Shown here piece after piece: positions 40,717-46,459 of a stretch of 64,000 nucleotides of DNA. Position 1 is the stretch's first letter; each line of letters opens with the position of its first letter. The stretch spans positions 14,050-78,049 of the forward strand of contig NZ_KB907268.1 of the NCBI RefSeq assembly GCF_000381905.1, given 5' to 3'. Source of the DNA: Paenibacillus fonticola DSM 21315. GTDB lineage: Bacteria > Bacillota > Bacilli > Paenibacillales > Paenibacillaceae. A program made the position numbers and the translations under genes. The notes beneath the pieces were generated by a model that saw nothing but the letters and a program-made list of their open reading frames with translations, searched no databases and had not been told where the DNA came from.

Positions 40717-40847
40717 AACGTCTTACTGAGTCTCCGCCAGTTCCGAAAGAGACAGAGCCAGCGAAAGAGCGGTTCAAGCTTTTCCATTGACGGAAACAAA
40801 ATTCTTCTCAGTAAATTGGCCGGCCTAATATCCGTCGACCCCATCAT

Positions 40848-41414
40848 CTATACCCTTAGCGAGCCGCGGAACCCTCTGGAAGCGTAGTAGGATTCCGCTC
40901 CATTGTGATACATAAAGACCGTATCGTAGCGGCGGTCGCAGAAGATCGCCCCGCCGAGTTTACGGATAGGGGTGGGCGTGATCACCCAGCTCGATGTTTT
41001 TGTATCGAAATTTCCAAGTCTTTGCAGCGCCCGGTATTGTTCTTCCGTCAGCATCTCGATTCCCATGTCTGCGGCCATATCCATGGCGTTGTTCTTCGGC
41101 TTGTGTTCTTTCCTGGATTCCAGTGCTTCGCGGTCATAGCAGACACTTCGACGGCCTTTAGGACTTTCGGCTGCGCAATCGTAAAAAATGTATGCATCCG
41201 TCTCGGGATCATGAGCAACCACATCCGGCTCGCCGCCGGTTTTTTCCATTTCACCTAGCGACCACAGCTTTTCAGCGTTGGCTTCCAGCTTTGCTTGTAC
41301 TTTGGACCATTCTAGTCCTTCATGGCGATTCATGTGCTTCTCAAATCGGGCCTTTAGGATGCGGAGCAGTTCCTCCCGTTGTTCGGGGGACAAATCCCTT
41401 GTTTCATTGCTCAT
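40848..41414 (-). CDS. DUF4256 domain-containing protein
   Basis: This 188-aa cytosolic protein matches the DUF4256 pattern: RFEKHMNRHEGLEW near the N-terminus, then EMEKTGGEPDVV, YIFYDCAAESPKGRRSVCYD and a C-terminal GGAIFCDRRYDTVFMYHNGA. Cys and His residues recur in the conserved blocks, so metal binding or catalysis is possible, but no activity is known to me. ATG 41414 has GGGAGG upstream. Confidence 0.85.
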   Translation of the reverse strand: MSNETRDLSPEQREELLRILKARFEKHMNRHEGLEWSKVQAKLEANAEKLWSLGEMEKTGGEPDVVAHDPETDAYIFYDCAAESPKGRRSVCYDREALESRKEHKPKNNAMDMAADMGIEMLTEEQYRALQRLGNFDTKTSSWVITPTPIRKLGGAIFCDRRYDTVFMYHNGAESYYASRGFRGSLRV

Positions 41415-41824
41415 AGCTAAGCCTCCCACAATACTAGGTTTTTAATTATAGTTCCGGATGTTATTCGCTTGAAATAGGCTCAATCTCATCTAGGACCCAT
41501 TGAATTTCCGCTTCTGACACGATTCTTCAATGACCGAAGATTTTCATACAGATTTAACTCGTAGATTTTCCTGGAACAGCCGCCTTTTTGCGGTTATCCG
41601 CGTTGGCTGACAATTCTCCCAGGACAAATACTCGTTATACCTCGACCACCTCCGCTGAGATCCCAATCTTTGTACAGTATAACAAATTTCGCACCACCAT
41701 TTAAATTTCGCCGCTTCTATTGGCCGCGCTATAGGTCGTGAATGAATTCGCAGGTTCCGGATACTGCATGGGCGGCATGAGGCCCGTTAAGGTGGACTTT
41801 TTTATTTTGACAAACGAATATAGT
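41415..41824. other. Intergenic region before the 19-bp array
   Basis: I see no gene. A 19-codon open stretch on the minus strand near 41463-41522 (ending DEIEPISSE) might be a remnant of a coding sequence, but there is too little to judge. Confidence 0.4.
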
Positions 41825-41995
41825 TACAGTAAACTGTAAATAATACACTAAAGTGTAATGGATACATAGAAGTGTGACATGAACATTGAAGTGTAACGCA
41901 AAAGTTAAAGCACAACATAAACACTGAAGTGTAGCATAAGCGCTACAATGGAGCATAAACACTGTAATGTAGAACTAACACTGTGTTGTATAACA
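41825..41995 (+). repeat. 19-bp tandem repeat array with palindromic units
   Basis: Unit starts at 41825, 41844, 41863, 41882, 41901, 41920, 41939, 41958 and 41977 are exactly 19 bp apart. Each unit carries a version of (T/A)ACACTnAAGTGTA, a short palindrome; the units at 41901 and 41939 are degenerate. It ends about 20 nt before the start of the MerR-like gene, so it is a likely operator array or leader element of the clpP operon. Confidence 0.85.
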
Positions 41996-42017
41996 ACTAA
42001 TGTTTCGGAGGTGTGCC

Positions 42018-42434
42018 ATGAATAGCTATACTGCTAAACAAATCGCTGAAATTCTCCAACAAGATGACCCACGCATGAATCTGCGAACGGTAAGGTACTA
42101 CACACAAATTGGAATGGTACCGCCTCTTGAATTAATGGGGAACAAGAGAGTCTACACGGAGCATCACATCCACTATTTTCGCGCTATTATGACCTTATCA
42201 AGAACCGGTGAGACATTGGCTTCTATACAAGAGACGTTGAAAGAGCTTTCCCTGGAGGATATAGAAAAGATAAGTCAGCAATTAGCATTGTATGAACCTA
42301 GCCGAATTATTGAAAATGAAACATTGAAGATAACAGATGATGTCATTATAACGATTAGCCCTCGAATTTCTGCGGAGTTAAAGCAAAGAGTGATTGATTC
42401 GGTTTCTCAGGCGTTAAAGGGGGAAGATCAATAA
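42018..42434 (+). CDS. MerR-like HTH regulator of the clpP operon
   Basis: This 138-aa protein has an N-terminal winged HTH of MerR type (YTAKQIAEILQ, then MNLRTVRYYTQIGMVPPLEL and NKRVYTEHHIHYFRAI). The C-terminal part (about 80-138) is short, includes DVIITISPRISAELKQRVID and lacks the long dimer coiled coil. CGGAGGTG lies upstream of ATG 42018. The stop overlaps the next gene (TAATG). It probably regulates its own operon through the adjacent repeat array. Confidence 0.85.
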   Translation: MNSYTAKQIAEILQQDDPRMNLRTVRYYTQIGMVPPLELMGNKRVYTEHHIHYFRAIMTLSRTGETLASIQETLKELSLEDIEKISQQLALYEPSRIIENETLKITDDVIITISPRISAELKQRVIDSVSQALKGEDQ

Positions 42435-42940
42435 TGCTTGACATCAAATTAGCCAAGTCAAAAATGGAGAACGAAGAAGGAATGAATCATTTGTGGATTC
42501 ACATACACAAGGATAAAACCTTTGGACGCCATATGTCCGAACTCCAAATACGGCTGCCGAAAGGTATCCACCGCTCGCATAACCTCAGTGGTTTTGTTGA
42601 AAATGAACGAGCACACATTGTAGTTGATGCCCTCGGTCAAGATGTTATTATAGAAATCTTTACCCAGGATGCGATTCAATGTGGTGAAAAGACAATCGTA
42701 GTAAGCTTATTGACAGCCGAGACCACGGTAAGCAAAGAAATTTCGATTCAAGTAGTCGAAGAAGATGAAATGGATATGGTTGAGATTGACGAACAAGTTG
42801 TCGAACGGACCAAAGAGTTAAGCAATGCAGATCCACCCAACGATGAAGGAACAAATATTGTATCAATTCCACCAAGGATATTGGAAATAAAGAATAATGA
42901 ATTTTCGTACTTAGAAAAGAAGTATCGTGTAGATTATTGA
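42434..42940 (+). CDS. Unknown protein in the MerR-ClpP operon
   Basis: This 168-aa protein has a first half (about 15-110) that looks beta-rich: LWIHIHKDKTFG, ELQIRLPKGIHRSHNLSGF, AHIVVDAL, DVIIEIFTQD, KTIVVSLLTAETTV. That suggests a small beta-sandwich with a repeated LP-x-GIHR feature. The second half is acidic (VVEEDEMDMVEIDEQVVE) and ends with NNEFSYLEKKYRVDY. No family is recognised. Its position between a regulator and ClpP suggests an adaptor, sensor or VWA-like partner; that is speculation. Confidence 0.78.
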   Translation: MLDIKLAKSKMENEEGMNHLWIHIHKDKTFGRHMSELQIRLPKGIHRSHNLSGFVENERAHIVVDALGQDVIIEIFTQDAIQCGEKTIVVSLLTAETTVSKEISIQVVEEDEMDMVEIDEQVVERTKELSNADPPNDEGTNIVSIPPRILEIKNNEFSYLEKKYRVDY

Positions 42941-42958
42941 AGATGAAGGGAGCGTACC

Positions 42959-43543
42959 ATGAATTTGATTCCTTATGTTGTCGAGCATTCCTCTAGGGGG
43001 GAAAGAGCCTACGATATTTACTCAAGGCTTCTGCAAGACCGTATCCTATTTGTGTCCGGTGAAATTACTGACGATGTTGCCAACAGCGTCATAGCACAAC
43101 TTCTCTATTTAGATGCTGTGGATTCGGCAAAAGACATCCACATGTATATCAATTCACCAGGCGGTTCAATTACAGCAGGCATGGGAATTTATGATGCCAT
43201 GCATTTAGTTAAGGCAGACGTCACAACATATTGTGTTGGTATGGCGGCTTCAATGGGTGCCTTTTTACTGGCGAATGGAGCGAAAGGCAAACGGCTTGCA
43301 CTTCCTAACAGTGAAATCATGATTCACCAGCCTCTTGGCGGAGCGCGAGGTCAAGCAACTGATATTGAGATAAGCGCCAAACGCATTATTCGATTACGTG
43401 ACAAAATAAACAACATATTGTCGCAACAAACTGGTCAGGAACTTGAGAAGATTGAAAGAGATACCGACAGAGACAACTTTATGGACGCTTACGAAGCGAA
43501 GGCCTACGGGTTAATTGACAAAGTGATTGAGGTGGCACAATAA
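42959..43543 (+). CDS. clpP: ATP-dependent Clp protease proteolytic subunit paralogue
   Basis: This 194-aa serine peptidase forms a tetradecameric chamber in this family. The catalytic triad is intact: S98 in [10 protein letters not shown]123 in MIHQPLGG and D172 in ERDTDRDNF, at the same numbering as S. aureus ClpP. Residues [13 protein letters not shown] and [12 protein letters not shown] are standard. It has no ClpX/ClpC ATPase neighbour and lies in an operon with a HTH regulator and two unknown proteins, so it is probably a second, specialised ClpP rather than the housekeeping gene. Confidence 0.93.
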
Positions 43544-43562
43544 AGAATAGGCGGTGAAGTGC

Positions 43563-43769
43563 GTGGAGAATGATCAAATTGAATTTACCGTTGAGTACCA
43601 AGATTCGAACGGAGTGCTTTACTTTGAAAATATCAAAGCGTCTAACCTGTCTGATGCAAAGATGCAGGTTCGCCAGAGGTTCCCTGATGTAAATATTAGA
43701 GCAGTTACAATTGTTCCGCACGATAATGGAGATGAGCCGGATCCTTTCGCAGCTTCTCTATTACTATAA
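43563..43769 (+). CDS. Small acidic protein downstream of clpP
   Basis: This 68-aa protein contains IEFTVEYQDSNGVLYFENIKASNLSDAKMQVRQ and ends DEPDPFAASLLL; the pattern suggests a small alpha/beta fold. GTG 43563 has AGGCGG 8 nt upstream; GTG 43554 is also in frame. The gap from clpP is 19 nt, so it is the last gene of this operon. No family is recognised. It could be a ClpP regulator or a substrate tag-binding protein (speculative). Confidence 0.7.
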   Translation: MENDQIEFTVEYQDSNGVLYFENIKASNLSDAKMQVRQRFPDVNIRAVTIVPHDNGDEPDPFAASLLL

Positions 43770-44270
43770 ACTTGCCTAAACAGATGCAGTGATATGCCAG
43801 ACACGATAATGAATAGGGTTCACTGCTTGGAGCTGGAGCAATATTGTCTCGATATAATAAAATTTGCTACAATTCATGATTTTCTCCAGATGTAATAAAG
43901 ATTTAATACTCCTGGTTACTCTGCTGATTCATGCGTTATCTTGTTGCTCTTCTGTGAATGTATTCGATATTTCGAATGTAATAAGCCTAATTACGACTAA
44001 ACGATCGATTATATATGAATTTTCACATACATTTACATATTCCCCCCCTCCTGAGTGAGTTTATATATGAATATTCGACTAGAATGAGCTTGTCATTCAT
44101 GCCGCTAAACTTAACTGAAGATTTCTTTTCTTTTGAGATTCTGATGGATATTAAGGAACTTAACATTTTTATTGTTTATAGTTAATTAGTTACCTTTTGC
44201 TCTTTGTTTTTTATATACTAGTAGATAAGCAACATTAATCATTTACAACTAAGGGAGGTCAGGACGATTT
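43770..44270. other. AT-rich intergenic region
   Basis: No gene is recognised. A possible hairpin GCAGTGA/TCACTGC spans about 43786-43826 and may end the clpP operon. The rest is AT-rich leader sequence of the chemoreceptor gene, with GGGAGG just before its start. Confidence 0.5.
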
Positions 44271-46301
44271 ATGAAAAAGGTGTTAGGTAATTTGAAAATC
44301 TTTGCGAAAATCGGAATTTTAATCCCAATTGTTGCAGTCTTCTTAATCGGCATGGCAATCATGAATCATCAGATTACTTCAAATGAAATTAAAAAAATGG
44401 TTGAAAATGAAATGTCTTTATTAGCTGACAACGTAACCGGTACCGTTGAAAACAAAGTTAATGCACATAATCAACTGATTTACAGTGTAAAGTCAGCTGT
44501 GGAAACTTCAGATACTATTTTGACTAGAGAAAAATTCGCCAGTTTAGTAGAGCAGATACTTCCATTAAATAAAGAAACCTACGGAATGGGACTATGGCTT
44601 GAAAAGGAAGCTGCAAATGGAGAAATATTTGGCCCCTATTTATATAAAGACGAGGAGAAAGCGGTTTACACCGATATTTATGAAGAACCTTCCTATGATT
44701 TTTATGCACAAGAATGGTATACAAAAGGAATAACTTCTAATCAAGTGTACCATACGGAACCTTATTTTGATGAAGCATCAGGGGAAATGTTCATTTCATT
44801 TAGTGTACAAGTGGTAGATGATTCGAAGCCAATCGGAGTCATTACGGGTGATTATATCCTTAATTCAATCCAGTCCATAGTCTCAGATATCAAAATTAGA
44901 GAAAGTGGATATGCTTTTTTAATTGATGACAAAGGTACTTTCTTAACTCATCCAGATAAAGAAAAAGTCAATACGGAAACGATTCAAGACTATTTAAATA
45001 TTCCACTCGAACAATTAGGAAATGTTTCAGCCTTGATCCAGACAAAGATTGATGGTGAAGGTCATTTCATGCAATATCAGCAAGTTAACGGTATGCCATG
45101 GAAAGTAGTATTACTTGTGCCAACGAAAGAACTGTTTAGTGCGCAACAAAAGATGACTTATCAACAGTTTGCTGTAAGTACGGTATTAGTCGTTTTAATG
45201 TCTTTGTTCGTACTTGTCATTGCGAGATACATTCGCAGTGAAGTAAGAAATATTAATGAGAATTTAGGTAATCTTGCAAACGGGGATTTAACGAAAACAT
45301 TATCCGTTGAGACAAAAGATGAATTTGGAGAGATGGCCAACTACTATAACGGTTCTGTCCAAGCATTAGGAGATATGTTGAAAGCGGTTTCAGCAGAATC
45401 GGAAGTGGTTGCATCAACGGCGGAAGAATTAACAGCGAGTGTACAGGAGGTAAATCAATCGGTAATGGCAGTAGCCGTTTCAATGCAAGATGTCGCGGAA
45501 AATACTAGTAAGCAACAATCCGTTAGTGAACAATTACAATCGGTAACAACATTATTATCGGAAGATATGCAGCAGGTCGTAGCAACGTTGAACGGGGCCG
45601 TTCAACAATCTGTTTCAACATCTGAAGTTGCCACAGGCGGCTCGAAAAATATTCGAACTTTTATTGATGATATAACACAGTTACATACCCAAGTAGAAGA
45701 AAGTGCAAGTTTAATGGGTAAACTAAAAGAACAATCGGAACAAATTGAAAGCATGAGTCAATTCATTTCATCGATTTCTGAACAAACGAATTTATTGTCT
45801 TTAAATGCAGCTATTGAAGCAGCACGAGCAGGAGAACATGGTAAAGGATTTGCCGTAGTCGCAAATGAAGTGAAGAAGCTTGCGGAACAAACGGGAGTTG
45901 CTTCTAAAGATATTGAAGACCTTGTTCGGACTATTCAAGATGAAATGAATCAAGCTGTTTTTATGATGGAACAAAGCCGTTCCATTGCTCAAAACGGTAT
46001 TGTTTCCGTAAAACAAGCGGGAGAAGCGTTCGATACGATTGCAGGCGCTATTCAAGATTTAAAACGAATGATAGGAACAACTAGCCAAAATACATCAAAT
46101 GCTTACGAAAAATTAAAAAATGTCACGGTAACGGTAGAAGAAATCAATGAACAAACAAGAACAACAAACGAACACACGTTAAATGTATCAGCTATTACAG
46201 AAGAACAATCTTCAACAATGAATGAAATGGCCATTGCGTCGGAACATCTTGCGAAACTTGCTCAAAGTTTACAAAAAGAAACCGGGAAATTTAAAATTTA
46301 A
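44271..46301 (+). CDS. Methyl-accepting chemotaxis protein with dCache-type sensor
   Basis: This 676-aa receptor has an N-terminal helix (about 13-33), an extracytoplasmic double-Cache-type sensor (about 35-300, including [26 protein letters not shown], and [13 protein letters not shown]), a second helix (about 300-320), a HAMP domain and a long signalling domain with the [20 protein letters not shown] hairpin tip. Codon use is distinctly more AT-rich than flanking core genes, suggesting acquisition. GGGAGG precedes the start. The ligand is unknown; dCache proteins often sense amino acids or organic acids. Confidence 0.93.
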
Positions 46302-46314
46302 TTAACTGAAATAC

Positions 46315-46356
46315 AAAAGGCAATTTATCCGCATTGTGGAAATTGCCTTTTGTTTT
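46315..46356 (+). terminator. Terminator of the second chemoreceptor gene
   Basis: AAAAGGCAATTT (46315-46326) pairs perfectly with AAATTGCCTTTT (46340-46351), followed by GTTTTG. Confidence 0.9.
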
Positions 46357-46459
46357 GCCTGTCTATTATTATACTATATTCAAGGATGATAATTATTTCT
46401 TAGCGAATGAAGCCGGATATGCGAACTGTACAATAAGCATAGATAAGAGGTGAAGGAAG

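Follow-up and report, generated by a model that had tools for sequence, protein, structure and literature searches.

The window analyzed here, a stretch of 64,000 nucleotides from Paenibacillus fonticola DSM 21315, contains an operon in which a promoter and an array of short palindromic units are followed by genes for a MerR-like regulator, a protein of an unnamed family (P2), ClpP and a small protein (P4), in this order. In window coordinates, the features are:

41807-43769: the whole unit, comprised of promoter, 19-bp array and four co-directional genes
41807..41835, + strand: sigma-A type promoter, with -35 TTGACA (41807-41812), a 17-bp spacer and -10 TAAACT (41830-41835)
41824..41994, no strand: nine 19-bp units, putative MerR operators, palindromes of the form TTACAST-NN-ASTGTAA
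42018..42434, + strand: MerR-family regulator, 138 aa (by PF13411 and relatives)
42434..42940, + strand: P2, 168 aa, unnamed family (by predicted fold and alignments)
42959..43543, + strand: ClpP, 194 aa, triad intact, of an accessory clan apart from the host ClpPs compared
43563..43769, + strand: P4, 68 aa, acidic (pI 4.24), GTG start, predicted beta-beta-alpha-beta

The sequence-only reading of this DNA had described the genes accurately: all four reading frames are present, open and tightly packed, the stop codon of the regulator (TAA, 42432-42434) overlaps the ATG of P2 at 42434 in the sequence TAATG, S98, H123 and D172 of ClpP are all kept, and P4 is a 68-residue acidic protein beginning at 43563. 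The array at 41824-41994 is an addition to that description. The G+C content of 41825-43769 is 41%, compared with 48% for the whole window. No description of such an operon was found among the titles and beginnings of abstracts listed from the open-access PMC literature.

Two peptide patterns derived from the alignment of P2 were used to scan 84,980 species, each represented by a single genome. This search, which was not exhaustive, identified 53 loci, and the record titles place all of them in Bacilli (Paenibacillus, Cohnella, Brevibacillus, Aneurinibacillus, Neobacillus, Sporolactobacillus and two strains labelled Bacillus). The gene order recurs beyond chance, a point that the sequence-only reading had left to be checked: MerR lies directly upstream of P2 in 53/53 loci, the two genes overlapping or standing a few bases apart. 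Of 392 genomes from the order, 81 gave a match to P2 (at E up to 1e-3), 80 to MerR (at E up to 1e-20) and 79 to both, and the three unpaired exceptions are damaged copies, namely G245, where an open MerR accompanies a P2 reduced to its ends by an internal deletion, and G263 and G341, which hold decaying copies of the operon. In G242, a MerR with an internal stop stands beside an open P2. The core of the operon is MerR-P2. Its distribution is patchy, and 0 of 39 relatives of the same genus contain it.

ClpP follows a different pattern. A full-length match is located after P2 in 22 of the 53 loci. The other 31 have either no ClpP or a broken one, and five of them (L024, L030, L031, L040 and L057) retain remnants with a significant match; in addition, L015, L017, L025 and L043 appear, as judged by eye, to keep a few leftover ClpP codons. 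Such remnants in loci lacking a full ClpP indicate that ClpP was once present and has been lost repeatedly. No gene that regularly replaces the lost ClpP was found in the loci without it. The remaining pair has not been released from constraint. Nei-Gojobori estimates for 25 hand-chosen pairs, imprecise in that several dS values exceed 1, give P2 a dN/dS of 0.17-0.31 in seven of ten pairs without ClpP on either side (dS being saturated in the other three), 0.16-0.35 in ten pairs with ClpP and 0.23-0.39 in five mixed pairs; where dS is unsaturated, the values are 0.02-0.15 for MerR and 0.04-0.10 for ClpP. MerR and P2 are under purifying selection in loci that lack ClpP, and the action of P2, whatever its kind, does not require the operon ClpP. 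The proposal of a dedicated ClpP system thus stands in one part, namely that regulator, P2 and ClpP are inherited together as a unit, and finds no support in another, the central place of ClpP, which is intact in 22 loci as against 53 for the selected MerR-P2 pair.

The ClpP of the window scores above the curated cut-off of TIGR00493 (322.9 versus 308.6 bits). The genome does contain other clpP genes, as the earlier reading had suggested checking; there are four in all, and the products of the other three are 63, 70 and 72% identical to the operon copy, the one on contig C15 being encoded directly upstream of clpX. In a tree of 46 rows (24 operon and 22 host ClpPs; 58 before 12 duplicates were removed), the hosts of which are only the copies that came with the loci and do not include every ClpP counted below, the operon ClpPs form one side of a branch with support of 99/96 that is recovered in 100% of 200 bootstrap trees. 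The operon ClpP has a single origin. Its triad is kept, save for D172 to E in 1 of 24 copies, and it is characterized by the class-specific residues Y6, Q26, T37, V84 and L91 (position 91 is Y in the window), whereas position 83 is F or Y in hosts and L, H, F or Y in operon copies. In the supposed docking pocket, which we take to be the hydrophobic pocket for ATPase loops, Y63, L49 and L115 are kept, while positions 83 and 91 (I91 to L, Y here) are altered, and docking of an ATPase could be weaker as a result.

No Clp ATPase is encoded nearby, as the sequence-only reading had also remarked. PF10431 (ClpB_D2-small, the Clp ATPase C-terminal domain) occurs at three places in the genome, in ClpX, HslU and an 822-aa ORF of the ClpC/ClpB class, all on other contigs (C2, C14 and C15); because the domain is present at these places only, no second large class-I Clp ATPase carrying it is seen. 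The 29 genomes with a MerR-P2 pair in which ClpPs were counted (belonging to 23 of the 53 loci and to six further relatives) hold three or four each: four in 11 and three in 2 of the 13 genomes with an intact operon ClpP, and three in 15 and four in 1 of the 16 without. One of the three ClpPs of G119 is a stop-broken operon copy. In G099, the genome of L016, two host ClpP matches on contigs C18 and C38 have equal score and identity, which reflects a duplication or an assembly effect.

P2 and P4 are, as had been noted from the sequence, proteins of no known family: neither matches Pfam (for P2, this includes Hsp20) or NCBIfam at E up to 1, or PADLOC, and their PHROG rows are at chance level only. 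At E 0.01, a P4 match appears in 15 of the 53 loci, and 11 of these 15 lack a full ClpP. The P2 family comprises 185 proteins at E up to 0.001. The predicted structure of P2 consists of an Ig-like beta-sandwich (residues 1-109), helices (110-131), a low-confidence linker that is probably disordered, and a conserved tail, LEKKYRVDY in the window and LEKKYR[VI][DE] in the family. Conservation is concentrated at the two ends, with values of 0.93 for the N-terminal motif, 0.89 for the tail and 0.50 for the core in 23 loci with ClpP, and 0.86, 0.81 and 0.46, respectively, in 33 loci without it (L008, L010, L019 and L043 were left out of this comparison). In L019, P2 ends early, at residue 98, and the ClpP next to it is intact; in L043, it is uncertain where P2 begins. 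Matches to the fold are generic Ig-like domains and are uninformative on function; the modeled architecture, in which a variable linker joins the Ig-like domain to a conserved tail, would fit an adaptor or client-binding protein. In two proteins from short metagenome contigs (P0068 and P0011), P2 runs directly into C-terminal or middle pieces of ClpP, and these fusions are either deletions within the operon or assembly products.

The members of the operon appear to share their history. Pairwise distances correlate between MerR and P2 (Spearman 0.77, 56 loci), between MerR and ClpP (0.62) and between P2 and ClpP (0.63; both in 23 loci), as expected for joint descent of the three genes; p-values mean little here, because the pairs are not independent. 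The synonymous divergence between Paenibacillus and Cohnella copies of the operon is about 0.2, compared with about 2 for one host clpP, and this difference shows that the operon moves horizontally between species. The alternative offered by the sequence-only reading, a mobile accessory operon that uses the host ClpX or ClpC, is consistent with such transfer.

The regulator is comprised of a winged HTH and about 60 further residues, and contains no cysteine. Its HTH passes the cut-off of PF13411 (MerR_1; 37.7 versus 21.6 bits). The start codon is most likely that at 42018 rather than an alternative at 42000, because nearly all relatives share its place and GGAGGTG precedes it. Palindromic sites (TTACAGTAWACTGTAA) lie upstream of MerR throughout the operator set of 58 loci (the 53, the window and four further relatives; L008 and L010 were removed as duplicates). 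In 57 of the 58 loci, the best upstream site differs from TTACASTNNASTGTAA at one of 14 positions at most, and in the remaining one it agrees at 11. A matrix trained on these same sites finds at least two strong ones in 57 of 58 loci; this training makes the tally of first sites in part circular, but not the spacing. Successive sites are 19 bp apart in 67 of 73 spacings, 38 bp apart in five and 20 bp apart in one. Several of the nine units in the window are degenerate, two of them badly, and the in-register matches per unit are 14, 13, 10, 11, 6, 11, 7, 10 and 10 of 14; nevertheless, their mean of 10.2 compares with 7.0 for the best of 2000 shuffles. Three units are strong by the matrix in the window, as in many relatives, which have one to three.

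The -10 of the window promoter is located inside the first operator. By itself, this promoter comes from a scan of the window that gives 8 sites overall, against 8.0 in shuffles; among the relatives, a -35 with five or six of six matches to TTGACA precedes the operator -10 in 43 of the 58 loci (the spacer, for which lengths of 16-18 bp were allowed, is 17 bp long in 31 of them and 18 bp in 12), against 50 of 1160 shuffled controls with three sites each, and a clear -35 was not found in the other 15. The -10 lies about 185 nt from the start codon in the window; in the 42 further loci measured, this distance is 41-93 nt. The genome contains a single perfect operator site, and sites with up to two mismatches (31 places) are no commoner than those of a reversed control (57); thus, the operator looks private to the operon. 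Classical MerR activators bind within a 19/20-bp spacer between -35 and -10 (PMC7722741). The layout here speaks for repression on that account, the spacer being 17/18 bp and the operator lying on the -10; activation of the classical type does not fit it, and putative MerR operators covering the -10 are probably an arrangement for autorepression. A GTGGACTTTTTT-like stretch is found just before the -35 in the window (about 41790-41805) and also upstream of MerR in L006 and L013-L017; in several of these loci it follows a complementary arm and is terminator-like, perhaps insulating the promoter. A terminator scan of the window found none.

What is new here is the ladder of palindromes at 19-bp spacing over a promoter with a 17/18-bp spacer. 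The nearest known arrangement is that of Helicobacter pylori HspR, a MerR-family heat-shock repressor that is proposed to bind cooperatively, as three dimers, to a 70-bp operator of its own (PMC6102357). HspR is a MerR-type repressor of its own promoter, and the layout here would suit the same role for the present regulator; the HspR equivalog NF047375 is the best NCBIfam row of the latter, albeit far below its cut-off (33.3 of 105 bits). On the other hand, about 50 C-terminal residues fall outside the HspR match, the palindrome is TTACAGT-N2-ACTGTAA instead of the HAIR operators of HspR, and MerR precedes P2, ClpP and P4. BldC, which forms cooperative multimers on DNA repeats, resembles it as a MerR-like protein with tandem sites; however, BldC has 68 residues, lacks the dimerization and effector parts and binds direct repeats (PMC5859096), whereas the present protein is 138 aa long and its units are palindromes. 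Classical MerR activators such as BmrR and CueR have the HTH family and a palindromic operator in common with it and differ in the spacer described above. The operon ClpP, in turn, is a full ClpP with an intact triad and resembles housekeeping ClpPs of Bacilli to the degree given above, but it forms a separate clan with residues of its own, has its own regulator and has been moved horizontally. Gram-negative bacteria carry mobile heat-resistance islands (TLPQC, with ClpK/ClpG). The operon is similar to these in being mobile proteostasis cargo, and differs in that neither ClpK/ClpG nor Hsp20 is among its four genes.

Taken together, the locus may be a horizontally exchanged accessory proteostasis operon under HspR-like autorepression, in which P2 is the effector and ClpP is dispensable; we assign this reading a probability of roughly 0.4. 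MerR dimers would tile the 19-bp-spaced palindromes over the -10 and the leader, the contiguous units forming a cooperative repressor run that shuts the promoter of MerR itself. A signal would release MerR, and P2, ClpP and P4 would then be produced together. P2 is most likely the effector, because it is retained with MerR in loci that lack ClpP, and these loci have no recurrent substitute for ClpP; its Ig-like domain would bind a client or partner, and its flexible linker would present the terminal LEKKYR[VI][DE] peptide for docking to another partner, for which the Clp machinery is the likeliest candidate. The operon ClpP would raise or specialize proteolytic capacity via the host ClpX and ClpC-class ATPases, and P2 would work with the ClpPs of the host itself after its loss. 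The link between P2 and Clp in the data is the shared operon; from the ancestral partnership with ClpP we infer that Clp proteolysis is involved, and P2 is perhaps a Clp adaptor or chaperone. Binding of MerR to the palindromes, repression, derepression and partnership with host ATPases are likewise inferred.

It is also tempting to speculate, more tentatively, that the operon is a mobile protease-adaptor module, in which a transferred, self-repressed MerR and an Ig-like P2 redirect the host Clp proteases to new substrates and the cognate ClpP is optional. If so, accessory elements would include a kind by which proteolysis is reprogrammed, and its repressor would polymerize on a 19-bp ladder, the length of which varies by strain. 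To our knowledge, the role of accessory ClpPs of Bacillota is mostly unknown, and the operon offers one with a defined, portable genetic context and a private-looking regulator site. The conserved tail of P2 is a testable binding motif of an uncharacterized partner family, and the loci that keep MerR-P2 after the loss of ClpP constitute a natural experiment on the role of the partner without ClpP.

Among the other explanations, a sensory role for P2 survives best, although it is rather doubtful. P2 would be the signal sensor or co-repressor of MerR, a part played for HspR by DnaK, and would sense client load or Clp capacity, the operon supplying more ClpP when needed. The strict pairing of genes that overlap or nearly do so, the conservation of the P2 tail after a variable linker and the apparently private operator all agree with this scheme; it is weakened by the 31 of 53 loci in which MerR and P2 are conserved with no intact ClpP, because a circuit lacking its output should decay.

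Less likely still is a selfish two-gene module of the toxin-antitoxin type, in which free P2 would be harmful, MerR would restrain it, and ClpP and P4 would be cargo. The core pair has the form of such a module, as an overlapping two-gene unit with an autorepressor-like layout, patchy within its genus and passed horizontally, and in G245, the sole genome where an open MerR lacks a P2 match, the deletion lies within P2. Against it, P2 matches no Pfam family and was not found in 72,556 plasmid and 50,697 phage records, and the open P2 of G242 stands beside a MerR that contains a stop. A role in defence against phages or plasmids, with a protease as the effector, is distinctly improbable: the accessory, mobile nature of the operon would suit it, and in PADLOC the HTH of MerR matches mad1, a model of the MADS system, over 51 residues (E 2e-6) and also a control protein (E 0.01), but an HTH match by itself is unspecific, P2, ClpP and P4 have none, and ClpP is dispensable. 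An ordinary extra ClpP paralogue beside unrelated neighbours, which the usual presence of extra copies in the 29 genomes counted might suggest, is contradicted by the gene order, 19-bp palindromes and single ClpP clan common across genera, and by a MerR-P2 pair that outlives ClpP, and is very improbable.

For the accessory proteostasis operon favored here, the surroundings give no hint of a particular stress, since no flanking family recurs in more than 9 of the 53 loci. A dispersed repeat lies just downstream of the operon (43920-44090, with looser copies from 43812), and further copies (76-91%) are present on contig C30 of the same genome and at several places in G004, G022 and G039. In a comparison with G004, the right flank (44186-46368, containing a 676-aa ORF) is 94% identical, while the left flank (40846-41415) is only 76% identical, as if the right side had undergone a recent exchange of its own.
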